From NCBI RefSeq assembly GCF_000062885.1, contig NC_009142.1, positions 4,453,584-4,517,583 of the forward strand: a stretch of 64,000 nt of DNA, written 5' to 3'. Positions 10,158 through 24,000 of this stretch are shown piece after piece. Within the stretch, counting starts at the first letter, position 1, and the number at the start of each line of letters is the position of its first letter. Source of the DNA: Saccharopolyspora erythraea NRRL 2338. GTDB lineage: Bacteria; Actinomycetota; Actinomycetes; Mycobacteriales; Pseudonocardiaceae. A program made the position numbers and the translations under genes. The notes beneath the pieces are model-generated. The model was given only the letters and a program-made list of their open reading frames with translations, searched no databases and had not been told where the DNA came from.

Positions 10158-11360
10158 CTAGATCTGACCGGCGCGCGGCGGGTGGGTCCCGTTCAGGGCG
10201 TATCTGCCGATGTGCTGGACCTTCCAGCGCACCGGGTCGTGCAGCGTGTGCGTCCTGGCGTTGCGCCAGTGCCGGTGCAGGTTGGTCTCGGCGAGGCTGG
10301 AGCGGGTGCCGGACACCTCGAACAGCGCGCTGCCCAGCTCGACCGCGGTGCCGTCGGCGAACGCCTTCGCCGTGGCTACCGCGATCGAGGCCGCCGCGGC
10401 CGAGTCGTCGTCGAGATCGCCGCGGGCCTCGTCCACGGCGGCTGCCGCCCGGTCCAGCAGTGCTTCGGCGGCCCGGACGCGGATCTCCAGCTCGCCGAAG
10501 CGCTGGATGGTCAGCGGGTCGTCGCCGGCCCGCTCGACCCCGCTGTCGGCCCACGGTCTGCTGCGGGTGCGCACGAACGCGGCCGCGTCGTCCAGCGCGG
10601 CACGCGCGATGCCCACGTCGATCGCGGCGTGCAGCACCTGCGCGAGCGCTCCGTGCAGTTGCGGACGTTCGAACGTGCGGTGGTGCGCCACGACGTTGGC
10701 CGCGGGTACGCGCACCTGTTCCAGCCGGACCGTGCCGCTGGCCGTGGTCCGCTGTCCCATGCCGCCCCAGTCGTCGACGACGGTCAGCCCCGCCGCGTCG
10801 GACGGCACGTAAGCAACCCGCAGAGCGTCGTCGTCATCCTTGGCCAGCACCGGGATCCAGTGCGCCAGCAACGCTCCCGTCGAGTACGCCTTGGTGCCGT
10901 CGAGGACGAAGTCGCCGTCGGGGCCGGCGGCGAGCCTGGTGCGGATGTCCTGCGCGTTGCGGCTGCCCGACTCCGACTGCGCGTTGCCGAACCGCCGTCC
11001 CGCCAGGACCTCGGCGAAGAAGTACCGCTGCTGCGCCGGCGTTCCGTTCTCCCGCAGCACGTTGACGTAGACGACGTGGCTCTGCGGGATCTGCGCGATG
11101 TTGGGGTCGGCCGCGGCCAGCAGCCGGAAGACTTCCACCAGGGTGCGGGTCGGCACCTCGGCACCGCCGTGCGCGGCGGGCACCGTGATGCCCAGCAGCC
11201 CGCTCGCCGACAGCGCGTCCAGCTCTTCCACCGGCAGTCTGCGCTGCGCGTCCCGTTCCGACGCGCCGGGGGCGAACTCCGCGGCGAGCCGGCGCGCCAG
11301 TTCCAGCGCCTCTTCTTCGCTGCCGACCACGTGCGCGCGCGTCGCGGCCTCGGCTGTCAT
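10158..11360 (-). CDS. SfnB-type acyl-CoA dehydrogenase-fold flavoprotein (sulfur acquisition)
   Basis: A 400-residue flavin enzyme with the acyl-CoA dehydrogenase fold, closest in style to the SfnB/DszC group linked to use of organosulfur compounds. Seen: an N-terminal helical domain ending GITVPAAHGGAEVPT, NIAQIPQSHVVYVN, the mid-domain FGNAQSESGSRNAQ and DWGGMGQRTTASGTV, and the C-terminal WRNARTHTLHDPVRWKVQHIG, which replaces the catalytic base region of true dehydrogenases. ATG 11360 has GAGGAG. Third gene of the sfnG operon, 50 bp behind its paralogue. Substrate not determinable here. Confidence 0.82.
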   Translation of the reverse strand: MTAEAATRAHVVGSEEEALELARRLAAEFAPGASERDAQRRLPVEELDALSASGLLGITVPAAHGGAEVPTRTLVEVFRLLAAADPNIAQIPQSHVVYVNVLRENGTPAQQRYFFAEVLAGRRFGNAQSESGSRNAQDIRTRLAAGPDGDFVLDGTKAYSTGALLAHWIPVLAKDDDDALRVAYVPSDAAGLTVVDDWGGMGQRTTASGTVRLEQVRVPAANVVAHHRTFERPQLHGALAQVLHAAIDVGIARAALDDAAAFVRTRSRPWADSGVERAGDDPLTIQRFGELEIRVRAAEALLDRAAAAVDEARGDLDDDSAAAASIAVATAKAFADGTAVELGSALFEVSGTRSSLAETNLHRHWRNARTHTLHDPVRWKVQHIGRYALNGTHPPRAGQI

Positions 11361-11410: not shown

Positions 11411-12634
11411 TCAGGTGTACCAGGTGGGTTCGGGCAGTTCTCCGAGCAGCGCGTACCGGCCGACCTCGACCCGCTTGTAGGCGACCGGGTCGTGCAGGCT
11501 GTGGGTGCGCAGGTTGCGCCAGTAGATGTCGAGCCCCACGGAGCTGGCGGTGGCCCGGGCACCGGTCACCTCGAAGATCCGGTTTCCGATCTCCAGCCCG
11601 GTGTCGATGATCCGCTGCTTGGCCGCGGCCACCAGCACCGCGACCTCGCCGCGCTGCTGCGGGGTGACCGACTCGCGCTCGGCGTGCAGCAGTTCCTCGA
11701 TCGCCGAGCCCGCCCGGTCGACCAGCGCTTCGGCCGCCCACAGCTTGGCCTGCAGGTCGCCGTAGGTGTCGAGGATGTGGAACTCCTCCGACGCGTGCTG
11801 CTTGTCGTCGCCGCCGTAGGGCCACGGGCGGGTCTTCTCACGGGTGTAGGAGGTCGCGTAGCGCAGCGCCCCCTGCGCGATGCCGAGGTAGAAGTTGGCG
11901 AAGACGAGCTGGATCGTCGGCAGGTTCAGCGTGTTGTAGGTCAGCGGCTGGAACTGCTTGTCCACGTATCCCGCCGCGGACTCCCACGGGACGCGCACGC
12001 CCCGGATCTCCACGCTGCCCGACTCGGTGAGGCGCTGGCCGATGTTGTCCCAGTCGTCGTTGAACACGATGCCGTCCTGGTGGGACGGCACGATGGCGAA
12101 GACGTGCTTGTCGGTGCCCTCGATCACCCCTTCCAGCACGGTCAGGTCGGAGACCTTGCTCCCGGTGGAGAACGACTTGCGCCCGTCGTAGACCAGCTCG
12201 TCGCCCTCGTCGGTGATGACGAGGTCGCGGTCGCGCGGGTTGACCGCCCCGCCGAAGAAGTAGTCGTTGGTGGTGTAGAGCTCCTCCACGGCCGCGATCT
12301 GCTCCGGCGTGCCCACCAGGCGCGCCGCCCAGGCCCACAGGTAGTGGTAGCCGAGCAGCTGCCCGATCGAGCCGTCCCCGGCGGCCACCGCCCTGGTGAC
12401 CCGGTAGGCCGTCGACCACGACTGCCCGCCACCGCCGTGCTCGACCGGACCGAGCAGCGTCACCAGCCCGGAGTCCTTGAGCAGCCGGACCTCCTCGTAC
12501 GGGGTCTGGTTCGCGCGGTCGCGCCGCACCGCGTCGGCCGCCAGCACGGCGGCCACCTCGTCGGCCCGCCGCACCCAGCCCTCGGCGGTGGTCGGGCGGC
12601 TCTTCCAGTTCACTGCCTTCTCCGTCGCTGTCAC
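11411..12634 (-). CDS. Acyl-CoA dehydrogenase-fold monooxygenase, DszC/SfnB-like
   Basis: A paralogue of the following gene (about 407 residues) with the same architecture: LVTLLGPVEHGGGGQSW in the N-terminal domain, GSIGQLLGYHYLW, DWDNIGQRLTESGSVEI in the beta domain, and YWRNLRTHSLHDPVAYKRVE at the end. DszC-like proteins are FMNH2-dependent oxygenases acting on sulfur atoms, so an oxygenase acting on sulfide or sulfone compounds is plausible. The GTG at 12634 has GGGAGA five bases upstream; another in-frame GTG at 12664 is possible but has a weaker site. It follows sfnG by 34 bp. Confidence 0.82.
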   Translation of the reverse strand: MTATEKAVNWKSRPTTAEGWVRRADEVAAVLAADAVRRDRANQTPYEEVRLLKDSGLVTLLGPVEHGGGGQSWSTAYRVTRAVAAGDGSIGQLLGYHYLWAWAARLVGTPEQIAAVEELYTTNDYFFGGAVNPRDRDLVITDEGDELVYDGRKSFSTGSKVSDLTVLEGVIEGTDKHVFAIVPSHQDGIVFNDDWDNIGQRLTESGSVEIRGVRVPWESAAGYVDKQFQPLTYNTLNLPTIQLVFANFYLGIAQGALRYATSYTREKTRPWPYGGDDKQHASEEFHILDTYGDLQAKLWAAEALVDRAGSAIEELLHAERESVTPQQRGEVAVLVAAAKQRIIDTGLEIGNRIFEVTGARATASSVGLDIYWRNLRTHSLHDPVAYKRVEVGRYALLGELPEPTWYT

Positions 12635-12668
12635 AGCTTCTCCCTGGTTTCCGGTGGTGCTCACTGCT

Positions 12669-13805
12669 TCACCGTCGCGCCGCCGCGACGGCCGGTACCT
12701 CGCCCGTGCGGTCGAGCTCGGCCTCCAGCTCCCGCACGATGGGCAGCACGCGGGTGCCGAACTGCTCGACGTCCTCCAGGTAGTGCAGGAAACCCAGCAG
12801 CAGGAGGTCCGCCCCGCGCTTCTTGTACTCGACGATGCGGTGCGCGATCTGCTCCGGAGTCCCGACGAGCCCCGTCCGGAACCCGTCGTTGTACTGCACC
12901 AGGTCGGCGAACTCCGAGTCCGCCCACATCCCCTTGCCGTCCGAAGTGGACTTCCCGGCCTGCGCGACCGCCTTGCGGAACCCTTCGACGGCTTCGGTGT
13001 CGGCCTTGGCAACGATCTCCCGCAGCACCTCGCGCGCCTCTGCCTCGGTGTCGCGGGCGATCACGAAGCCGTTGAGCCCGAAGCGGACCGAGCGCCCGTT
13101 CTCGGCCGCGAAGGCGCGGACGTCGGCGACCTGCTCGGAGAAGCCGTCGAAGTCCTTGCCGTTGCTGAAGTACCAGTCCGAGACCCGCCCGGCGAGCCTG
13201 CGGGCCGCCGTGGAGTTGCCGCCCTGGAAGATCTCCGGGTGCGACCGTCCCGCCACCGGGTGCGGCTGCGGGCGGAGGCTGAAGTCGTGGATCCGGTAGA
13301 AGTCGCCGTTGAGGTCGAAGTTCGGCCGGGTCCACAACCCGCGCAGCACGCGGATGAACTCCTCGGTGCGGCGGTAGCGCTCGTCGTGCTCCAGCCACGG
13401 TTCGCCGAGCCCGGTGAACTCGTCCTTGAACCAGCCGCTGACGATGTTCACCGCGAACCGGCCCTGCGACAGGATGTCCGCGGTGATGCCGAACTTGGCG
13501 AGGATGGCCGGGTGCCACAGCCCCGGGTGCGCGGCCACGATCAGCTTGAGGCGTTCGGTGGCCAGCAGCAGACCGAGGCTGAAGGCCGCCGGATCGTGCT
13601 GCTGCGCGGCTCCGTAGCTGGAGGCGTAGCGCACCTGGCTCAGCGCGTACTCGAAGCCGCTGTTCTCGGCGAGCACCGCGAGCTCCTTGTTGTACTCGAA
13701 GCTGAACTCGGTCCGCTGCTCGATCTTGCTGGTGACCAGGCCGCCGCTGACGTTGGGAACCCAGTAGGCGAACTTCAGCGGCTCGGAGGGGACGTCGCTG
13801 GACAT
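12669..13805 (-). CDS. sfnG: Dimethylsulfone monooxygenase SfnG (FMNH2-dependent, bacterial luciferase-like)
   Basis: A 378-residue luciferase-like monooxygenase. The N-terminal FAYWVPNVSGGLVTSKIEQR block is the hallmark of the SfnG branch, which oxidises dimethylsulfone to methanesulfinate. Further family blocks are HPGLWHPAILAKFG, GRFAVNIVSGWFKDEF, HPEIFQGGNSTAAR (phosphate binding of FMN) and LVGTPEQIAHRI. ATG 13805 has GGAG upstream. It is the first structural gene after a short leader ORF (13994-14074). With the two DszC/SfnB-like genes behind it, this is a C1/C2 organosulfur scavenging operon. A flavin reductase gene is not in the window. Confidence 0.92.
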   Translation of the reverse strand: MSSDVPSEPLKFAYWVPNVSGGLVTSKIEQRTEFSFEYNKELAVLAENSGFEYALSQVRYASSYGAAQQHDPAAFSLGLLLATERLKLIVAAHPGLWHPAILAKFGITADILSQGRFAVNIVSGWFKDEFTGLGEPWLEHDERYRRTEEFIRVLRGLWTRPNFDLNGDFYRIHDFSLRPQPHPVAGRSHPEIFQGGNSTAARRLAGRVSDWYFSNGKDFDGFSEQVADVRAFAAENGRSVRFGLNGFVIARDTEAEAREVLREIVAKADTEAVEGFRKAVAQAGKSTSDGKGMWADSEFADLVQYNDGFRTGLVGTPEQIAHRIVEYKKRGADLLLLGFLHYLEDVEQFGTRVLPIVRELEAELDRTGEVPAVAAARR

Positions 13806-13962
13806 GTTGTCTCCATTGGAAAAACGCAGGATGCATCAAGGCACGACGGTCCGACGCGGCGCGTGGCGGAACACCGTCGTAGCGGGAAAGGCGAGTTCGA
13901 CCGCATCGCGGCGGAGTTCGCCGGGTAGCTCAGGCGATCACCGGGTGCGGTAGCAACAGCGA

Positions 13963-13983
13963 GCCCGGACAGGCGATCCGGGC
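13963..13983 (-). promoter_or_regulatory. Perfect 7-bp hairpin between leader ORF and sfnG (attenuator candidate)
   Basis: Read on the minus strand, GCCCGGA and TCCGGGC are exact complements around a 7-base loop, 10 bases after the stop codon of the leader ORF. Together with the leader this is a candidate attenuator stem. No U-run follows, so a transcription-terminator role is not shown; it could instead gate translation. Confidence 0.4.
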
Positions 13984-13993
13984 GCGGGAAAGA

Positions 13994-14074
13994 TCAGGAG
14001 CGGCGACAAGCCTGCGCCACCACGCGGTTGAGATCCACGTGACGGCGCTTGGTGAGCCGGCTTCCTGGGAACAC
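13994..14074 (-). CDS. Short leader peptide of the RRHVDL type (sulfur-gene leader)
   Basis: A 26-residue ORF with GTG start at 14074. Its core reads LTKRRHVDLNRVV and then AQACRRS, matching the small actinobacterial peptides with R-R-x-V-D-L-x-R followed by a Cys codon that sit before sulfur-assimilation genes. It lies 189 bp upstream of sfnG on the same strand, with a hairpin in between. No Shine-Dalgarno is visible, and a TTGACA box is placed so that transcription could begin at the GTG, suggesting a leaderless message. Expected role: ribosome stalling at the single TGT (Cys) codon when cysteine is short, changing readthrough into the sulfur operon. The motif is seen; the mechanism is inferred from the family. 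Confidence 0.7.
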   Translation of the reverse strand: MFPGSRLTKRRHVDLNRVVAQACRRS

Positions 14075-14080
14075 ACCGTC

Positions 14081-14109
14081 ATACGACCAAAGCGGGTCAC
14101 GGGTGTCAA
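14081..14109 (-). promoter_or_regulatory. Promoter for the sfnG leader transcript
   Basis: On the minus strand TTGACA (14104-14109) is a perfect -35 hexamer, followed 17 bases later by TCGTAT (14081-14086), a partial -10. That spacing puts the start of transcription on the GTG of the leader peptide at 14074. An alternative -10, TATGAC at 14078-14083, has a long 20-base spacer. Confidence 0.45.
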
Positions 14110-14182
14110 CAGCCCGTTCGCCGCCGTTCCACTCCTCGGACGGAGGGTCCGCGCACCCTCACGGCTGTGCGACTCTGCCGAC

Positions 14183-15535
14183 GTGTCCTCCGATCAGACC
14201 CCCGAATCCGGGCGGACGGCCGATGTCCGCACCGTCCTGGTCTCCAGCGTCATCGGCACCACCGTCGAGTGGTACGACTTCTTCCTCTACAGCACGGCCG
14301 CCGGACTGGTTTTCGACGAGTTGTTCTTCCCCAGCGACGACCCCTACATCGGGACGATGCTGGCGTTCGTCACCTTCTTCGTCGGCTTCGTCGCCCGCCC
14401 GCTGGGCGGGGTCCTCTTCGGACACATCGGCGACCGCATCGGGCGCAAGCGGACCCTGGTGTCCACAATGGTCCTGATGGGTCTGGCCACCGCGGCGATG
14501 GGCCTGCTGCCCACCTACCAGCAGGTGGGCATGCTCGCGCCGGCCCTGCTGGTGCTCCTGCGGCTGCTGCAGGGGCTGGCCATCGGCGGTGAGTGGGCCG
14601 GCGCGGTGCTGATGGCCGTCGAGTACGCACCGCCCGGACGGCGCGCCCGCTACGGCGCCTGGCCGCAGGTCGGGCTGGCGCTGGGGCTGGGCCTGGGCAC
14701 CGGGCTGTTCGCGCTGCTGGGCAACTCGCTCGACGAGCAGCAGTTCCTGGACTACGGCTGGCGGATCGCCTTCGGGCTCAGCATCGTGCTGGTCTTCGTC
14801 GGCCTGGCCATCAGGCTGCGGGTGTCGGAAACCCCGGCGTTCCGGCGGATGCGCGCGCTGGAGGGCGCCGCCCGCGTGCCCATCCTCGAGCTCTTCCGGG
14901 AACCGGTGCGCCGGCGCAACACGCTGCTGGGCCTGCTGTCGCGGTGGGCCGAAGGCGCGGCGTTCAACACCTGGGCGGTCTTCTTCATCTCCTACTCGAC
15001 CTCGACGCTGGGCATGGCGCGCAACGACGTCCTGGTCGCCATCATGGCGGCCTCGATCACGCTGGCCGTGCTGATCCCCGTTTTCGGCGCCGTGGCCGAC
15101 AGGTGGACACCGCGACGCACGTACGCGCTCGGCGCCGCGGTCTACGGCGTGTTGGTGTACCCGGCGTTCCTCGCCTTCCAAAGCCGCGACCCGCTGCTGG
15201 CGGGCTTGGTCGTGGTGCTCCTGCTCGGCGTGGTGCACGCCGTCATCTACGCGCCGCAGGGCACCTTCTACGCGCAGCTCACGCCCGTCCGCCTCCGCTA
15301 CACGGGGATGTCCTTCGTGTACCAGTTCTCCGGCATCTACGCGTCGGGGCTCACGCCGCTGATCGTCACCGCACTGCTGGCGGCCGGCGGCGGCTCGCCC
15401 TGGCTTGCGTGCGGCTACCTGCTGCTCACCGGCGTGATCGGTGCCGTGGCGGCGCTGGCGATCCGCGAACGCGACCTCTTCGCCACCGCCGAGACGGCAC
15501 CGGACGCCACGTCCCGCGAGTCCGTGCACGCCTGA
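14183..15535 (+). CDS. MFS transporter, metabolite:H+ symporter (MHS) type
   Basis: A 450-residue twelve-helix transporter. The MHS/major-facilitator signatures are clear: GTTVEWYDFFLYS in helix 1, RPLGGVLFGHIGDRIGRK after helix 2, LLRLLQGLAIGGEWAGA in helix 4, and AVADRWTPRRTYALG between helices 8 and 9. These transporters import carboxylates, betaines or related small anions. Of several in-frame starts I prefer GTG 14183, which places helix 1 normally; the open frame extends back to 14039 but that stretch overlaps the leader region on the other strand. It is divergent from the sfnG operon and could bring in its organosulfur substrate. Confidence 0.88.
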   Translation: MSSDQTPESGRTADVRTVLVSSVIGTTVEWYDFFLYSTAAGLVFDELFFPSDDPYIGTMLAFVTFFVGFVARPLGGVLFGHIGDRIGRKRTLVSTMVLMGLATAAMGLLPTYQQVGMLAPALLVLLRLLQGLAIGGEWAGAVLMAVEYAPPGRRARYGAWPQVGLALGLGLGTGLFALLGNSLDEQQFLDYGWRIAFGLSIVLVFVGLAIRLRVSETPAFRRMRALEGAARVPILELFREPVRRRNTLLGLLSRWAEGAAFNTWAVFFISYSTSTLGMARNDVLVAIMAASITLAVLIPVFGAVADRWTPRRTYALGAAVYGVLVYPAFLAFQSRDPLLAGLVVVLLLGVVHAVIYAPQGTFYAQLTPVRLRYTGMSFVYQFSGIYASGLTPLIVTALLAAGGGSPWLACGYLLLTGVIGAVAALAIRERDLFATAETAPDATSRESVHA

Positions 15536-17001: not shown

Positions 17002-18162
17002 TCACGAGTGCCCGCCCGCCGCCGGCCCGGGCGCGAACAGGGTTCCGCGCACGCATCCGCGCAACGTCCGCACGCCGACCACGGCCCATGCGCAGACCAG
17101 TCCCGCGTAGAACAGCACCGCCGCGACGGCGAACACCGCGGCGTGACTGCGCTCGGCCAGCTCGCTGGTGCCGGTGACGACCACGCCCACCGGGAAGGTG
17201 AACGACCACCACGTCAGCGAGAACGGCAGCTTCGCGCGTGCGGTGCGCAGGGTGATGAGCGCGGCGATCGCGGCCCAGAAGACCGCGAAGCCCCACACCG
17301 GAACCCCGTAGACGAGCCCGAACACGGCCAGGCCGGTCGAGTACGGCGGTGGTACGGCCAGCGGCGCGACGTCACCGAGCAGGTTGGCCGCGGTCACCGA
17401 CTGCCCGAGCGGGCCGAGCACGATCCACAGCGTCGGCACCAGCACCGCCGGGCCCTGGTTGTGCTGGGTGAGCCGCCACCAGACCAGCGTGATCACCACC
17501 GTGGACGCCAGCAGGCCCGCGCCGAACATCGCGTAGCAGGCGATCAGCACCGAGGTCCTCGCCTGGCCCGGCGCGGCGTGCGGGACCAGCAGGGCGCCGC
17601 CCGCGGCCGCGACCATCGGCGGCACCAGCGGCATCAGCCAGCTCGCGAACACCGAGTCCGGAGCCGACCGGTGCCTGGTGAACATCCACAGCGGCACCAG
17701 GACGGCGGCGGCCAGACCGCTGACGGCACCGGCCGACCACAGCGTCCACGCGACGGCGACCGCGGCGCGCTCTCCGATCACGTGCCTGCCGACCAGCAGC
17801 GTCCCGGCTCCGACCGTCAGCAGCGCCATCGGGGGCGCGCCGAAGTACTGCACCAGGAACGGATCCGTCACGTGTGGACGACCGCGGCGCAGGGCGAAGT
17901 GCAGCGCCCACGTGATGCCCGCGCCCACGAGCAGCACTGCGGCGAGCAGCCACACCGCGGTGGCGGCGAACGTGAGCGCGGTCGCGTGCACCGGCAGCGT
18001 CGCGGCGGCGTTGGCCACGATGCCGGTGCCCATGACCGAGGTGAACCAGTTCGGCCCGAAGTTGTCGACGAGCTGTCGCCCGCGTCCGCGTCCGCGTTCG
18101 CCGCGAGGACGCGGTGGGGCCGGGGCGCGGGTTCGCCTGCTCTCGGCGAAGCGCGGGATCAC
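17002..18162 (-). CDS. TehA/SLAC1-type anion channel or TDT-family transporter, coupled to narI
   Basis: A 386-residue, about ten-helix membrane protein of the tellurite-resistance/dicarboxylate transporter (TDT) family, which includes bacterial TehA and the plant SLAC1/SLAH nitrate-permeable channels. NFGPNWFTSVMGTGIVANA at the start is the family signature; VQYFGAPPMALL, SWLMPLVPPMVAAAG and LPFSLTWWSFTFPVGV follow. The start GTG at 18162 overlaps the narI stop by 4 bp (GTGA), so it is translated with the nitrate reductase. An Arg/Pro-rich cytoplasmic N-terminus of about 40 residues precedes helix 1. Location in the nar operon suggests nitrate/nitrite movement (inference); sulfite or dicarboxylate export are alternatives. 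Confidence 0.85.
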   Translation of the reverse strand: MIPRFAESRRTRAPAPPRPRGERGRGRGRQLVDNFGPNWFTSVMGTGIVANAAATLPVHATALTFAATAVWLLAAVLLVGAGITWALHFALRRGRPHVTDPFLVQYFGAPPMALLTVGAGTLLVGRHVIGERAAVAVAWTLWSAGAVSGLAAAVLVPLWMFTRHRSAPDSVFASWLMPLVPPMVAAAGGALLVPHAAPGQARTSVLIACYAMFGAGLLASTVVITLVWWRLTQHNQGPAVLVPTLWIVLGPLGQSVTAANLLGDVAPLAVPPPYSTGLAVFGLVYGVPVWGFAVFWAAIAALITLRTARAKLPFSLTWWSFTFPVGVVVTGTSELAERSHAAVFAVAAVLFYAGLVCAWAVVGVRTLRGCVRGTLFAPGPAAGGHS

Positions 18163-18890
18163 ACCCTTTCCCAGCCGCGTTGCGGTTTGCGGTTCCCGAC
18201 CAGCCGGTCGCCCGACCGGCTGCGGTAGACGATGTGCGGCCGGAACAGGTAGTGCACCGGCGCGCTGAACGCGTGCACCAGCCTGCTGAACGGCCAGAGC
18301 GCGAACAGCACCAGCGCCAGGCCCGCGTGCATCTTGTAGTCGAACGGTGCGTGGGCCATCAGCTCCGGGTGCGGGTTCAGCAGGAAGATGTCGCGGAACC
18401 AGGGCCCGATGGTCTCGCGGTAGTCGTACGGGCCGCGCACGCCGTTGTCGACGGTCGTGGTCCACAACCCGGCGAGCATCACCAGCGCCAGCACGGTGTA
18501 GACGACCCGGTCGCCGCGCGAGGTGGCCTTGCGCACCGCGACGTTGCGCATCCGCCGCCACAGCAGCAGCGCGAACCCGGCGATGGCGGCCACACCGGCC
18601 AGGAAGCCCATCACGAGCGAGACGACGTGGTAGTTGTGCTCGGTGACGCCGACGAGCGCGGTGAGCTGCTTCGGCACCAGCAGGCCCAGCACGTGGCCGC
18701 CCGCCACCATGAACAGTCCGTAGTGGAACAGCGGGCTGGCCACCCGCAGCACGCGCGCCTCGTGCAGCTGGCTCGACCGGCTGGTCCAGCCGAACTTGTC
18801 GTGGCGGTAGCGCCAGACCGTGCCGACGACGAACACCGCCAGCACGACGTAGGGCAGCACACCCCACAGCAGAAGGTCTGTCGGGCTCAC
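18159..18890 (-). CDS. narI: Respiratory nitrate reductase gamma subunit
   Basis: Membrane cytochrome b (243 residues) that passes quinol electrons to NarGH. Five hydrophobic spans are visible. Paired haem-ligand His residues occur in LFHYGLFMVAGGHVLGL, HNYHVVSL and the C-terminal YKMHAGLAL segment. It starts at GTG 18890, whose first bases overlap the narJ stop (GTGA), with GGAGGC just upstream. The C-terminus (GDRLVGNRKPQRGWERV) is cytoplasmic. Fourth gene of narGHJI. Confidence 0.96.
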   Translation of the reverse strand: MSPTDLLLWGVLPYVVLAVFVVGTVWRYRHDKFGWTSRSSQLHEARVLRVASPLFHYGLFMVAGGHVLGLLVPKQLTALVGVTEHNYHVVSLVMGFLAGVAAIAGFALLLWRRMRNVAVRKATSRGDRVVYTVLALVMLAGLWTTTVDNGVRGPYDYRETIGPWFRDIFLLNPHPELMAHAPFDYKMHAGLALVLFALWPFSRLVHAFSAPVHYLFRPHIVYRSRSGDRLVGNRKPQRGWERV

Positions 18891-19528
18891 CTGTTGCCTC
18901 CTCTTGCGGCCGACGGGTACGGGTCCAGGCCGACGTGCTCGCGCGGAGGCGGACCGACCGGGATCTCCTGGCGGTGTTCGCGCGGCACCGTGCTCAGCAC
19001 CCCGCGGACGGCACCGGCGTAGGGGGTGGTGATGTCGTCGAGCTTGCGGGCAAGCAGCTCCAGCGCGGGCCGGAAGCGGGCGAGCAGCCGCTCGCCCTCG
19101 CGCACCGCCGCGGGACCGCCGGTGGCGGTGAACTCCAGCAGCACGGGCAGGTAGTCCGGCAGCTCCCCGCCCTCCACCCGGAAGTCGTGGGACCGGTAGA
19201 GGCCCACGAGCTCGGCCAGCGCGCCACCGCGAAGCCGGGTGTCGCCGTGCAGGTACCAGGTGAGGTAGAGGCCGCGCCGCGGCCTGATGTCGAAGACCTC
19301 CACGTAGTGCTGCTCCGCCTCCCGGGCGGGGGTGCTCCGGAGGTGCTCGACGACCGCCCGCAGGTGCCCGGCCGCCTCGTGGTCGCCGAGCTCGCCGACG
19401 CAGTCACCGAGCAGACCGAGGTTCTGCCGCAAGGCGTCGTCCGGGTAGTGCAGGCACCACGACGCGACCTGCCGGATGACGGCGTCGGTGTGTGCCGACG
19501 CATGCGACCGCCTGCCGAACAGCCGCAT
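18887..19528 (-). CDS. narJ: Nitrate reductase assembly chaperone (delta subunit)
   Basis: A 213-residue TorD/NarJ-type chaperone needed to load the molybdenum cofactor into NarG and not part of the finished enzyme. Recognisable by the N-terminal ASWCLHYPDDALRQNL, by HYVEVFDIRPRRGLYLTWYLHGDTR (the family signature around Y-V-x-x-F-D), and by ELPDYLPVLLEF. The ATG at 19528 overlaps the narH stop by one base (TGATG), so translation is coupled. The C-terminal tail is Pro-rich. Confidence 0.94.
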   Translation of the reverse strand: MRLFGRRSHASAHTDAVIRQVASWCLHYPDDALRQNLGLLGDCVGELGDHEAAGHLRAVVEHLRSTPAREAEQHYVEVFDIRPRRGLYLTWYLHGDTRLRGGALAELVGLYRSHDFRVEGGELPDYLPVLLEFTATGGPAAVREGERLLARFRPALELLARKLDDITTPYAGAVRGVLSTVPREHRQEIPVGPPPREHVGLDPYPSAARGGNR

Positions 19529-21099
19529 CACGACCCCGCCCGGGTGTCGGGGAACAGGCCGTCGGGCCGTCCCCGGCCGCTCCAGACGAACAGGTCGGTC
19601 CGGCCGGACTTCAGCGGCGGACCGCCCATTCCCGGGCCTCCGTCGGTGTCGAGGCTGCACGTCGTGGCGATGGACTCCAGCTCGTGGGCGTCGCCGATGC
19701 CCGCCGAGGGGATCACGTAGCGCTCGTCGTACTTGGCCAGCGCGAGCAGCCGGTACATCGAGCGGACCTCCTCGGTGGTCAGTCCCGCCGCGTCCAGCGG
19801 GGCGGCGTCGGGCTGCTCGCCGAGGTTCACCGACCGCATGAACGAGCGCATCACCGCGAGCTTGCGCAGGGACGCCCTCACCGGGCCGGCGTCGCCCGCG
19901 GTGAACAGCTCGGCCAGGTACTCCACCGGGATGCGCAGCGCGTCGATGGCGCCGAAGAGGTTGCCCGCGTCCTCCCCGTCGAAGCCGGTCCCGGCGACCG
20001 CGTCGACCACCGGCGACAGCGGCGGGATGTACCAGACCATCGGCATGGTGCGGTACTCCGGGTGCAGCGGCAGCGCCACCTGGTAGGTGCAGATCAGGTC
20101 GCGCACCGGGGAACGCCTCGCCGCCTCGATCCAGTCGTGCGGGATGCCCGCGCGTTCGGCCTCGGCCGCCACCGCGGGATCGTCCGGGTCGAGGAAGAGG
20201 TCGCGCTGCGCCGGGTAGAGCGCGTGGTCGTCGGTGACGGCGGCCGCCTCGGACACGCGGTCGGCGTCGTAGAGCAGGACCCCGATGTAGCGCAGCCGCC
20301 CCACGCACGTCTCCGAGCAGATGGTCGGCTGCCCGACCTCCACCCTCGGGTAGCAGAAGGTGCACTTCTCGGCCTTGCCGGTGCGGTGGTTGAAGTAGAC
20401 CTTCTTGTACGGGCAGCCCGACACGCACATCCGCCAGCCCCGGCACTGCTCCTGGTCGACCAGCACGATGCCGTCCTCCACCCGCTTGTACATCGCGCCC
20501 GACGGGCACGACGCCACGCACGAGGGGTTCAGGCAGTGCTCGCAGATCCTCGGCAGGTAGAACATGAACGACTGCTCGAACTCGAACTTCAGCTTCAGCC
20601 CCAGCTCGTCGCGCAGCTTGGCCACGACCGGGTCGGCGTCGGCGTGCTCGGGCATGCCGCCGAGGTCGTCGTCCCAGTTCGGCCCCCACCGAACGTCGGT
20701 GGGAGCGCCGGTGATCGCCGAGGTCGGCCGGGCCACCGGGGTGTCGTCGCCGAGCGGGGCGTCGGTGAGGTTGCGGTAGTCGTAGGTCCAGGGCTGGTAG
20801 TAGTCGTCGAGCTCGGGCATGTCGGGGTTGGCGAACAGCGAGGCGAGCCTGCGCAGCCGGCTCCCGCCGCGAAGCCGCAGCCGTCCCTTGCGGTCCAGCT
20901 CCCACCCGCCGCGCCAGTGCTCCTGGTCCTCGTAGCGGCGCGGGTAGCCCTGACCGGGCCGGGTCTCGACGTTGTTGAACCAGACGTACTCGACGCCACC
21001 GCGGTTGGTCCACGTCTGCTTGCAGGTGACCGAACACGTGTGGCAGCCGATGCACTTGTCGAGGTTCATCACCATCGCAAGCTGTGCCATGACGCGCAT
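19528..21099 (-). CDS. narH: Respiratory nitrate reductase beta subunit (four Fe-S clusters)
   Basis: A 523-residue electron-transfer subunit. Four ferredoxin-like Cys groups are present: NLDKCIGCHTCSVTCKQTW near residue 20, ICEHCLNPSCVASCPSGAMY, QCRGWRMCVSGCPYKK (with the Trp that marks the [3Fe-4S] site) and KCTFCYPRVEVGQPTICSET. The ATG at 21099 overlaps the narG stop (TGATG); an internal ATG at 21090 is the alternative. It transfers electrons from NarI haem to NarG on the cytoplasmic face. Length and order match the family. Confidence 0.97.
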   Translation of the reverse strand: MRVMAQLAMVMNLDKCIGCHTCSVTCKQTWTNRGGVEYVWFNNVETRPGQGYPRRYEDQEHWRGGWELDRKGRLRLRGGSRLRRLASLFANPDMPELDDYYQPWTYDYRNLTDAPLGDDTPVARPTSAITGAPTDVRWGPNWDDDLGGMPEHADADPVVAKLRDELGLKLKFEFEQSFMFYLPRICEHCLNPSCVASCPSGAMYKRVEDGIVLVDQEQCRGWRMCVSGCPYKKVYFNHRTGKAEKCTFCYPRVEVGQPTICSETCVGRLRYIGVLLYDADRVSEAAAVTDDHALYPAQRDLFLDPDDPAVAAEAERAGIPHDWIEAARRSPVRDLICTYQVALPLHPEYRTMPMVWYIPPLSPVVDAVAGTGFDGEDAGNLFGAIDALRIPVEYLAELFTAGDAGPVRASLRKLAVMRSFMRSVNLGEQPDAAPLDAAGLTTEEVRSMYRLLALAKYDERYVIPSAGIGDAHELESIATTCSLDTDGGPGMGGPPLKSGRTDLFVWSGRGRPDGLFPDTRAGS

Positions 21100-24000
21100 C
21101 AGTACTCCACCTCCTGGTCGCGGCGGCGGATCGTGGTGACCTCGTCGCGCTGGTTGCCGGTCGGGCCGTGGTAGTTCAGCGCGAACGACTGCTGGGCGTA
21201 GCCGCCGATGAGGTGGGTGGGCTTGATCTGAATCCGGGTGAGCGAGTTGTGGATGCCGCCGCGCCGCCCGTCGGTCCGGCTCTTGGGGACGTTCACCGTC
21301 CGTTCCTGCGCGTGGTAGAGGAAGACCGTCCCGGTCGGCATCCGGTGCGAGACGACCGCGCGTGCGACCACCACACCGTTGCGGTTGACGGCCTCGACCC
21401 ACTCGTTGTCGGACACGCCGATGGCCTCGGCGTCGGCGGGGCTCATCCAGATCGCCGGACCGCCCCGGGAGAGCGTCAGCATGATCGGGTTGTCCTGGTA
21501 CTCGGTGTGGATCGACCACTTCGAGTGCGGGGTGAGGTACCGGACCACGACCTCGGCGTTGCCACCCGGACCGATGCGCGGTTCGCCGGAGAGCCGGTGC
21601 AGGTCCAGCGGTGGCCGGTACAGCGGGAGCTGCTCGCCCAGCTCGGCCATCCAGTCGTGGTCGAGGAAGACGTGCTGGCGCCCGGTGAGGGTGTGCCACG
21701 GCTTGAGCTGCTCCACGTTGATGGTGAACGGCGAGTAGCGCCTCCCGCCCGACTCGTCACCGGACCACTCCGGACTGGTCACCACCGGCGCGGGCCGCGA
21801 CCTGGTGTCGGCGAAGGTGACCCGGTGCCCGCCGTCGTGCTCGGCGATCCGCGCGAGCGGTCTGCCGACGCGCTGCTCCAGCGAGCGGAAGCCCGCGACC
21901 GCGAGGCGTCCGTTGGTGGTGCCGGAAAGGGCGAGGATCGCGTCCGCGGTGCGGATGTCGGTGTCCAGCCGCGGTCGTCCCGCCGCCGCGCCGCTGCGGG
22001 CCACGCCGTTGTGGGCGCCGAGCCGGCTCAGCTCCTCGTCCACCTCCACGGTGTAGCCCTTGACCGTGGCCCCGAGCTTGTCGAGCAGCGGTCCCACCGC
22101 GGCGAGCTTGTCGGCCACCGCGGGGTAGTCCCGTTCGACGACCGTCAGGGTGGGCAAGGTCCGGCCGGGAACCGGTTCGGTCTCCCCCGCCCGCCAGTCC
22201 AGCAGGACGCCTCCCGGCTGGGCGATCTCGCCCGGGGTGTCGTGCCCGAGCGCGGTGGCGACCACGTCGCGGCGCACGCCGAGGTGGTCGCGGGCCAGCT
22301 CGCTGAAGCGGCGCGCGATGGCGTGGAAGGCGTCGAAGTCGGTGCGGCACTGCCAGGGCGGGGCGACCGCGGCGTTGAACGAGTGGACGAACGGGTGCAT
22401 GTCGGTGCTGGACAGGTCGTGCTTCTCGTACCAGGTCGCGGCGGGCAGCACGACGTCGGAGAACATCGTCGTGCTGGTCATCCGGAAGTCCAGCGACAGC
22501 AGCAGGTCGAGCTTGCCCTCCGGGGCCTGCTCCGGCCTGCTCACCTCCGACGACCCACCGTTGTCCGGTGCTTCCCGCGCGCGCAACGAGGAGTCGGTGC
22601 CGAGCAGGTGCCGCAGGAAGTACTCGTTGCCCTTGGCCGAGGAACCCAGCAGGTTCGACCGCCACACCGTGAGCACCCGCGGCCAGTTCGACTCGGCGTC
22701 GGGGTCCTCGCAGGCGAAGCCCAGCTTTCCCGAGCGCAGCAGGTCGACGACGTGCTGCACGGGGTCGGCGCCCGCCCGGTCGGCCTCGTCGGCCAGGTCC
22801 AGCGGGTTGCGGTCGAACGTCGGGTAGGACGGCATCCACCCGGCCCGCGCCGACCGCGCCACGCAGTCCGCCGCGGTGGTCCCGGCCAGCTTTCCCGGCG
22901 CGCCGGGCCAGGCCAGGGCACCGGTGTCCAACGTGTCGTAGCGCCACTGGTCGGTGTGGGTGTAGAACCACGCGGTCCCGATCATCTGCCGCGCCGGGCG
23001 GTTCCAGTCCGCGGCACTGGCCAATGTGGACCACCCGGTGAGCGGCCGGATCTTCTCCTGACCGACGTAGTGCGCCCAGCCGCCGCCGTTGCGGCCCTGG
23101 CAGCCGGTGATCAGCAGCAGCGTCAGGAACGTCCGGTAGACCTCGTCGGAGTGGAACCAGTGGTTGGTGCCCGCACCCATCAGGATCATGCACCGGCCCT
23201 CGGAGCGGATCGCGGTGTCGGCGAACTCCCGGGCGATGCGGGTGACCCGCTCGGCAGGCACCGAGGTGATCCGCTCCTGCCACGCGGGCGTCCCAGGCGA
23301 CTCGGCGTCGTCGTAGCCCTCGGGCCACTGCCCCGGCAGGCCGTCGCGGCCGACGCCGTACTGCGCCAGCAGCAGGTCGAAAACCGTTGTCACCAGCGGA
23401 CCGCCCGGGCGCAGCCGGACCGCGGGCACCCCGCGGGTGACCTCCCGGCCGAGACCGTCCGGTTCGTCGAAGCGGGGCAGGCGCACCGGCACCGCCCCGG
23501 CGCGCTGACCGAGCACCTCGGCGCCGTGCAGGCTCAGCAGCGGGCTGGTCTCCTCCAGGTCCAGGTTCCACCGCCCCGGTTCGCCGTCGTTCCAGCGGAA
23601 GCCCAGCGATCCGTTGGGAACCGCGGGCCTGCCGGTGCGCTCGTCGACGAGCACGGTCTTCCACGCCTCGTGCTCGCCGTCGTGTCCCAGGTCGGCCGCG
23701 GTGACGAACTTGCCCGGCACCAGGCCCTCGGGCCGCTCGGCGAGGGTGACCAGGAACGGCAGGTCGGTGTAGCGGCGCACGTAGTCGGTGAAGAACGGCG
23801 TGCCGCGCTCGACGAAGAACTCCCGGAGCACGACGTGGCCCATCGCCACCGCCAGCGCGGCGTCGGTGCCGGGGTGGGCGGCCAGCCACTCGTCGGCGAA
23901 CTTGGTGTTGTCGGCGTAGTCCGGGGACACCACCACGACCTTCTGGCCCCGGTAGCGCGCCTCGGTCATCCAGTGCGCGTCGGGGGTCCTGGTGACCGGG

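Follow-up and report, generated by a model that had tools for sequence, protein, structure and literature searches.

A conserved RRxVD leader peptide with a near-invariant UGU codon precedes sfnG in Saccharopolyspora erythraea: a candidate cysteine-responsive attenuator

Comparison of related sequences indicates that a 26-codon open reading frame (ORF) upstream of sfnG in Saccharopolyspora erythraea NRRL 2338 encodes a genuine leader peptide that is conserved and belongs to a widespread actinobacterial set. Members of this set carry an RRxVD motif followed, exactly nine codons past its Asp, by a cysteine codon that is almost always UGU. This near-invariant UGU at a fixed distance from the motif hints that the ribosome may sense cysteine here with great precision. 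Our main reading, to which we give a probability of roughly 0.6, is that the leader responds to cysteine and attenuates the sfnG operon, by means of leaderless translation, a pause at UGU, the RRxVD motif and Rho. The analysis covered a stretch of 64,000 nucleotides (the window), whose positions are used below. The features of the leader and its operon are the following:

14104 to 14109, minus strand: -35-like box TTGACA, from the sequence
14081 to 14086, minus strand: weak -10-like box TCGTAT, from the sequence (3/6 match to TATAAT), 6 nt 5' of the GTG
13994 to 14074, minus strand: leader ORF VFPGSRLTKRRHVDLNRVVAQACRRS, 26 codons, GTG start at 14074, TGA stop at 13994
14033 to 14047, minus strand: RRHVD, codons 10-14, conserved motif with a putative nascent-chain role, from leader comparison
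14006 to 14008, minus strand: Cys codon 23, TGT, proposed sensor codon, exactly nine codons past the Asp
13963 to 13983, minus strand: exact 7-bp hairpin GCCCGGA/TCCGGGC with a 7-nt loop and no U tract, from the sequence
13914 to 13993, minus strand: 80 nt past the leader stop, candidate stretch for the loading of Rho, from composition (more C than G, C-G 0.14)
13811 to 13814, minus strand: GGAG, ribosome site of sfnG, from the sequence
12669 to 13805, minus strand: sfnG, dimethylsulfone monooxygenase (TIGR04021, 595 bits, cut-off 383)
11411 to 12646, minus strand: DszC/SfnB-like flavin monooxygenase, start uncertain (NF043015, 258 bits; TIGR04022, 252 bits; both under cut-off)
10158 to 11360, minus strand: SfnB family sulfur acquisition oxidoreductase (TIGR04022, 594 bits, cut-off 431)

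An earlier, sequence-only reading of this DNA had proposed a 26-codon ORF with a Cys codon directly following RRHVDLNR, located 189 bp upstream of sfnG. The ORF and its place upstream of the gene stand; the Cys is codon 23, nine past the Asp, and the distance to the sfnG ATG (13805) is 188 nt. This is the single Cys of the 26 residues, and there is no Cys run. The same reading had the operon consist of SfnG and two DszC/SfnB-like flavoproteins; SfnG and SfnB are both over their cut-offs, and the middle protein is DszC/SfnB-like but scored below both of its own. With sfnG and sfnB over cut-off, the leader has the sulfur-gene context expected of cysteine-responsive leaderless leader ORFs. A gene for a metabolite/H+ symporter-type transporter (below cut-off) is located on the opposite strand and points away from the leader locus. 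Elsewhere in the window, ORFs at 18159-21699 on the minus strand resemble narHJI, which encode subunits of respiratory nitrate reductase.

The pattern L[TV]xRRx[VIL]D-8-C was found once in the window, whereas 40 resamplings of the window gave 0.075 occurrences on average. The leader peptide was matched by NF042933, the Ms5788A model (E 1.1e-5, 25 bits, under the cut-off of 45), and by NF042934, a cis_reg_atten model of a 'putative leader peptide' domain (E 1.7e-5, 24.3 bits, under the cut-off of 27), and it scored 17.8 bits with the Ms4527A family NF042936 (cut-off 45). When NF042934 was run over the whole genome of the organism (one contig of 8,212,805 bases), the sfnG leader was recovered at E 9.7e-4 and 23.0 bits, six places elsewhere were stronger, and three other places were over the cut-off.

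With sixteen leaders as query and a threshold of E<=0.001, 150 genomes of the order were searched and 123 had a leader-like match; in a phylum-wide search with 72 leaders, 24 of 296 genomes matched, 19 being from the same class. We read 123 loci from the order and the organism's own genome, the strongest among the matches listed (121 with the motif anchor, L101 and L087 being dropped), and 65 further matches from the phylum-wide search. Removal of duplicates (60-nt key), of L241 and L245 and of hits below 19.5 bits left 166 distinct leaders, and addition of a set anchored on sfnG brought the number to 214.

A search for SfnG itself across 298 genomes of the order recovered it in 64. A first motif filter placed a leader upstream of at least 15 of the 63 sfnG loci (66 places minus three gene fragments), a lower bound since one leader or more was overlooked at this step (L031 of G078, recovered as L118). 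In a second set, made up of the best 80 loci of a longer list and one relative from the genus, a leader was located within 600 nt of sfnG in 53 of 81 loci, belonging to Saccharopolyspora, Streptomyces, Nocardia, Saccharothrix and Sciscionella. It was not found within this distance in the other 28, which were counted regardless of the position of sfnG in its operon: 20 were from Amycolatopsis or Actinomadura, three from Saccharopolyspora, and the rest from Gordonia, Microbispora and one Propionibacteriales MAG. These comparative data bear out the identity of the leader and its association with sulfur genes, both of which the earlier reading had proposed.

Short ORFs are common, and one without function could arise by chance. 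We nevertheless consider this extremely improbable here, since the ORF recurs before sfnG in those 53 of 81 loci, with TGT in 52 of the 53, and since the same genome holds a paralogue of shared geometry. The latter, VMSALLTKRRHVDFLRVTTQACRR, is arranged as TTGACA-18-TGCGAT-6-GTG, starts at this GTG or at the adjoining ATG, and precedes an alkanesulfonate monooxygenase (ssuD)-like gene (478 bits, versus a cut-off of 510).

At the sfnG leader, the order is TTGACA, 17 nt, TCGTAT, 6 nt and GTG, which places TTGACA 30 nt before the leader start. Taken as sequence geometry, this spacing is compatible with a start codon at the transcript start, and the leader is probably translated, leaderless, from the GTG. 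A generic promoter scan of 13780-14260 called zero promoters, and TCGTAT differs from the TA...T pattern of the family. Relative to 280 possible starts in the 166 leaders, TA...T had 87 hits at 0-39 nt, 58 of which ended 6-8 nt ahead of the start, and TTGAC had 45 hits at 15-44 nt, 28 of which stood 30-32 nt ahead of it. By this measure leaderless geometry is common in the leader family, and the earlier description of a perfect TTGACA box placed for a leaderless start is supported by the promoter geometry of related leaders.

Codons are numbered below from the Asp of the motif (position 0, or D). In the first 121 leaders, Arg at -4 and Asp at 0 were invariant, under an anchor that itself demanded Asp, and Arg or Leu at -4. 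This Arg was spelled with six codons, which argues that the constraint acts on the peptide. The length from Asp to stop ranged from 9 to 26 codons in the 214 leaders, so the register that is fixed would be the one between the Asp and D+9. When the A site is occupied by D+9, the Asp would be 8 residues, and the two Arg 11-12 residues, from the P-site residue.

The D+9 codon was TGT in 205 of the 214 distinct leaders, TGA in 4, TGC in 3 and GGG in 2. Because Cys at D+9 was part of the search model, its presence there is biased, whereas its spelling is not. In the first 121 leaders, 117 had Cys at D+9, spelled TGT in 116, versus TGC in 38 of the 39 Cys codons at D+2. That TGT would also be found at D+9 in other families was predicted in writing ahead of reading the 65 further matches, in which it accounted for 59 of 60 Cys codons at this position (other Cys codons: TGC 40, TGT 24, chiefly via mycobacterial Cys runs). 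Outside the organism's own order (52 matches), TGT was found in 47 of 48 Cys codons at D+9, the other four matches having TGA, GGG or, for two weak hits, no codon; Cys codons elsewhere in these leaders were TGC 23 times and TGT 6 times. The sfnG-anchored set, which was collected by RRxVD with Cys not required, had TGT at D+9 in 52 of 53 leaders, and TGC 36 and TGT 13 at its other Cys codons. Where D+9 and D+10 were both Cys (214 leaders), TGT-TGC occurred 31 times and TGT-TGT 11 times, and TGC never came first. TGT was not restricted to D+9: close to it, at D+11, 10 of the 14 Cys codons were also TGT, which counts against the main reading.

Compared with the other Cys codons of the 166 leaders (TGC 125, TGT 30), the D+9 codon gave a Fisher p of 1.5e-55, a value that overstates independence because the leaders are related by descent. 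The drift of neighbouring third bases is a better control: over the 214 leaders, a third-base G or C was found in 2.4% at D+9, versus 63-97% at all other codons from -7 to +11. Cys codons of 104 downstream ORFs, chosen by length and composition, were TGC 186 times and TGT 19 times. Of the 15 sfnG leaders obtained with the first filter, 13 had TGT and 2 had TGC at D+9, and four leaders of the organism's own genome outside the 214 (L101, L087, L088 and L078, in whose place the divergent neighbour had been read) all had TGT. This constancy suggests that cysteine would be sensed at the Cys codon of the sfnG leader.

A single tRNA-Cys gene, with anticodon GCA, was found among the 49 tRNA places of the genome. 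UGU is therefore read by G-U wobble, and a choice between isoacceptors was rejected as the cause of the UGU. Wobble reading is slow. It is conceivable that only the Cys codon matters, as in attenuation by amino-acid supply, with UGU chosen as a slow wobble codon and RRxVD having no part in the pause (but maybe one in leaderless initiation or peptide turnover). In line with this, among the Cys codons of the 166 leaders outside D+9, TGT made up 25 of the 74 from D+7 onwards versus 5 of the 81 up to D+5. This account is, however, doubtful in our view, given that RRxVD is kept at the peptide level, that the nine-codon spacing is constant despite the 9 to 26 codons from Asp to stop, and that the motif persists in variants whose D+9 codon is UGA and not Cys.

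Alternatively, the U of the D+9 codon could be held by RNA base pairing rather than by decoding. The RNAalifold consensus of 16 Streptomyces sfnG leaders (L313-L371) pairs UGUY with GRCA beside the leader start, and a lean towards complementarity was seen, over 106 leaders, between the base just ahead of the Asp codon and the middle base of D+10 (C/G 39, G/C 19, C/C 18, G/G 14). The Streptomyces partner nevertheless lies mostly ahead of the start predicted for leaderless transcripts and is absent in two leaders of the organism's own genome, and the flanking bases 21-38 carry at most 0.97 bits versus 1.68 for the U. Rfam covariance models had no match in 13700-14400 (E<=1) or in 8 related loci (E<=0.1). 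Pairing was rejected as the source of the U, no shared partner having been found apart from this weak two-position lean and the Streptomyces-only fold, and we regard it as very improbable.

The few departures from TGT were inspected individually. UGA was present at D+9 in L159, L216, L218 and L259, and L159 and L216 were without any Cys; L159, L216 and L218 precede dicarboxylate-type symporters (scanned for L216, from resemblance for the others). A reading of UGA as selenocysteine was rejected on the three genomes scanned for SelB, which was over cut-off in the genomes of L216 (G078) and L218 (G085) and absent over cut-off in that of L159 (G101). GGG was found in L215 and L276, and TGC in L076, L254 and L299, as well as in L042 and L043, which are outside the 214. 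L042 and L043 are related sfnG leaders; L042 is longer by four residues and carries a TGT at D+13 besides its TGC at D+9, whereas TGT is missing from L043. The UGA leaders, two of them lacking Cys altogether, are left unexplained if a shortage of cysteine simply induces the genes.

The organism's own genome contained 12 leader matches at E<=0.001 in the phylum-wide search. In either of two scans of this genome, the leaders at E<=8.8e-4 were, apart from the sfnG leader and the paralogue described above, the following:

L076: before a nitrite/sulfite reductase-like gene, named from resemblance to L147
L079: before a TauE-like gene, named from resemblance to L144
L077: before a dicarboxylate-type symporter gene, below cut-offs
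L103: before the gene for SsuE, over cut-off
L099: before a gene for another FMN reductase, from Pfam
L084/L102: before a DUF4395-like gene followed by a sulfurtransferase-like gene, both from resemblance
L105: before a MetN-like gene, below cut-off
L080 and L101: before cysteine dioxygenase genes, from Pfam, at about 6,879,665 and 6,960,341 of G000:C1
L081: before a gene for a protein without a Pfam match

L078 and L099 form a divergent pair of leaders within about 260 bases (G000:C1, 4,346,228-4,346,486), one of which precedes the FMN reductase gene. Among the 28 distinct gene products scanned in the window and at leader loci, APS kinase, SsuE, TauE and cysteine dioxygenase were over cut-off, and sulfurtransferase, sulfite/nitrite reductase, SsuD and an amino-acid ABC binding protein were named below cut-off. 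Cysteine dioxygenases degrade cysteine, so the leaders before their genes (L080 and L101) are also left unexplained by simple induction through cysteine shortage. L116 and L131 precede a protein with a PhoB-type DNA-binding domain (below cut-offs for L116, from resemblance for L131), a regulator that may itself be leader-controlled.

Downstream of the sfnG leader, an exact hairpin had been noted just past the stop codon. Its seven pairs are indeed exact (a hairpin of this size with a loop of 3-8 has P 0.018 in 40 nt of window-like random sequence), and the 50 nt past the stop have a folding z-score of -1.9. A functional role found no support, as folding in the family was not above control: over 165 leaders, the mean z past the stop was -0.41 (50 nt) and -0.68 (100 nt), versus -0.75 in 166 upstream control stretches. 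Runs of five T within 250 nt past the leader were found in 13 of 164 family members. No intrinsic terminator with a U tract, as in a trp-type attenuator, was found behind the sfnG leader in 13780-14260. The hairpin was accordingly rejected as a terminator, having no U tract and lying in a region whose folding across the family is no stronger than upstream.

Past the stop of family leaders, the strand is rich in C and poor in G, with 48% C versus 27% G in the first 20 nt. The median C-G over 80 nt was 0.175 in 165 leaders, versus 0.035 for 48 sfnG genes without a found leader (p 1e-11), a control that includes at least one gene with a leader because the first motif filter missed L031/L118 (G078). 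It also exceeded the 0.05 of 252 other upstream regions (p 2e-25). Both comparisons are compositional evidence, between stretches at unequal distances from the gene start. At 0.14, the stretch in the window is milder than the family median.

The leader could instead act on translation, its coding region pairing with and hiding the sfnG ribosome site until a ribosome paused at Cys opens this site. Such a mechanism would agree with M. smegmatis, whose cysteine genes are described, in the text available of PMC13236596, in terms of translation attenuation rather than of Rho. In single cases, blocking of the leader also raised the predicted access of the site (from 0.24 to 0.50 for L113 and from 0.29 to 0.74 for L138). 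Over 127 leaders, however, the mean gain in access was 0.057 versus 0.046 after shuffling (Wilcoxon p 0.33), in a weak test that used single-sequence folding and gene starts picked by a ribosome-site rule, and the GGAG of sfnG was predicted to be closed with the leader free or blocked. Control of this kind is, to our mind, unlikely. Rho-dependent attenuation is favoured because of the C-rich, G-poor tail, the rarity of T5 runs and the lack of ribosome-site release.

Under the Rho-dependent reading, transcription would start at or next to the GTG, and the ribosome would load at the 5' end and translate the leader. When charged tRNA-Cys is scarce, it would pause once UGU (codon 23) has entered the A site. 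RRxVD would then be located close to the constriction of the tunnel, some 8-12 residues away from the peptidyl-transferase centre, and may reinforce the pause or gate it. Halted three codons before the stop, the ribosome would shield the C-rich, G-poor stretch and block Rho, so that sfnG to sfnB would be made. With ample cysteine, it would leave, the C-rich stretch would be exposed and transcription would end early.

More broadly, RRxVD leaders may form a codon-locked sensor programmed by the nascent chain, in which a peptide in the tunnel makes the ribosome highly sensitive at a single A-site codon, nine past the Asp (UGU, which the sole tRNA-Cys reads by wobble, or rarely UGA), with a TnaC-like geometry used for elongation and not termination. 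Such a sensor would read sulfur status, be it from a thiol ligand or from how far tRNA-Cys is charged or modified, and would control many sulfur operons in parallel. We propose this generalization tentatively, as a possibility that we would not yet bet on.

If the sfnG leader does respond to cysteine, leader control of this kind would extend from mycobacterial cys genes to the scavenging of organosulfur compounds (dimethylsulfone, sulfonates). The near-absolute preference for UGU rather than UGC at this position, where one tRNA-Cys serves both codons, would be a clean natural case of synonymous-codon selection. One-base changes make it testable whether wobble decoding sets the gain of the leader and whether a short nascent motif aims the pause.

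Cysteine-rich leaderless leader ORFs of mycobacteria were reportedly described by Canestrari et al. in 2020 (Ms5788A, corresponding to NF042933, and Ms4527A, corresponding to NF042936). The sfnG leader shares with these the RRxVD core (in Cys-run leaders such as L237), the predicted leaderless placement, a Cys near the C terminus and cysteine or sulfur genes downstream. It differs from them in having one Cys instead of a run, in scoring below the cut-offs, in preceding dimethylsulfone genes and in showing no sign of ribosome-site hiding. The NF042934 domain has a core region in common with the sfnG leader, and its name and description are silent on mechanism and codon. In the extracts consulted, cysteine-responsive leaders of mycobacteria are cited in PMC9094748 and PMC13236596, and cysteine-rich uORFs of mycobacteria are reported in PMC4633059.

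Excerpts of the literature searched, to which Canestrari et al. 2020 did not belong, contained no report of a constant UGU or of a leader before sfnG, and RRHVDL as a text string returned an unrelated match only. UGU in a Cys leader appeared, among the matches listed and in the portions displayed, only for the cysS case of Rhodobacterales. This leader, uORFC-8-2, resembles ours in the Cys codons of its upstream ORF and in the ribosome-mediated attenuation proposed for it, and differs in its dominant UGC, tandem Cys and intrinsic terminator, as far as the accessible part of PMC8632094 describes it. The Cys-run leaders predicted for actinobacterial cys operons, for which Seliverstov et al. proposed a Rho model (PMC1262725, in extract), share with the sfnG leader the sulfur genes downstream and the lack of a terminator; they differ in their Cys runs and the few species covered, and neither RRxVD nor a codon preference is mentioned in that extract. 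A survey of Streptomyces lividans lists, in its available text, eight leaders for other amino acids, with no cysteine leader noted (PMC8079986).

The closest analogy in register is with TnaC of E. coli, whose stop is codon 25. The essential D16 of TnaC lies nine codons before this A-site codon, as the Asp of RRxVD leaders lies before D+9, and the arrested ribosome shields a Rho site, as we propose for RRxVD leaders (PMC10941005, in part). According to the same partial text, W12, D16, I19 and P24 are critical and the complex is arrested on tRNA-Pro (PMC10941005). RRxVD leaders have no known ligand and no Trp or Pro conserved at the distances found in TnaC, only the Asp-to-A-site spacing of nine being in agreement, and their A-site codon is usually UGU instead of a stop. 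The likeness is thus one of register, by analogy, and is not meant as sequence likeness or homology. Taken together, the sfnG leader appears to resemble cysteine-responsive leaders in its working, yet scores below the cut-offs of the named families, and its surprising part is the UGU held at a fixed register from RRxVD.
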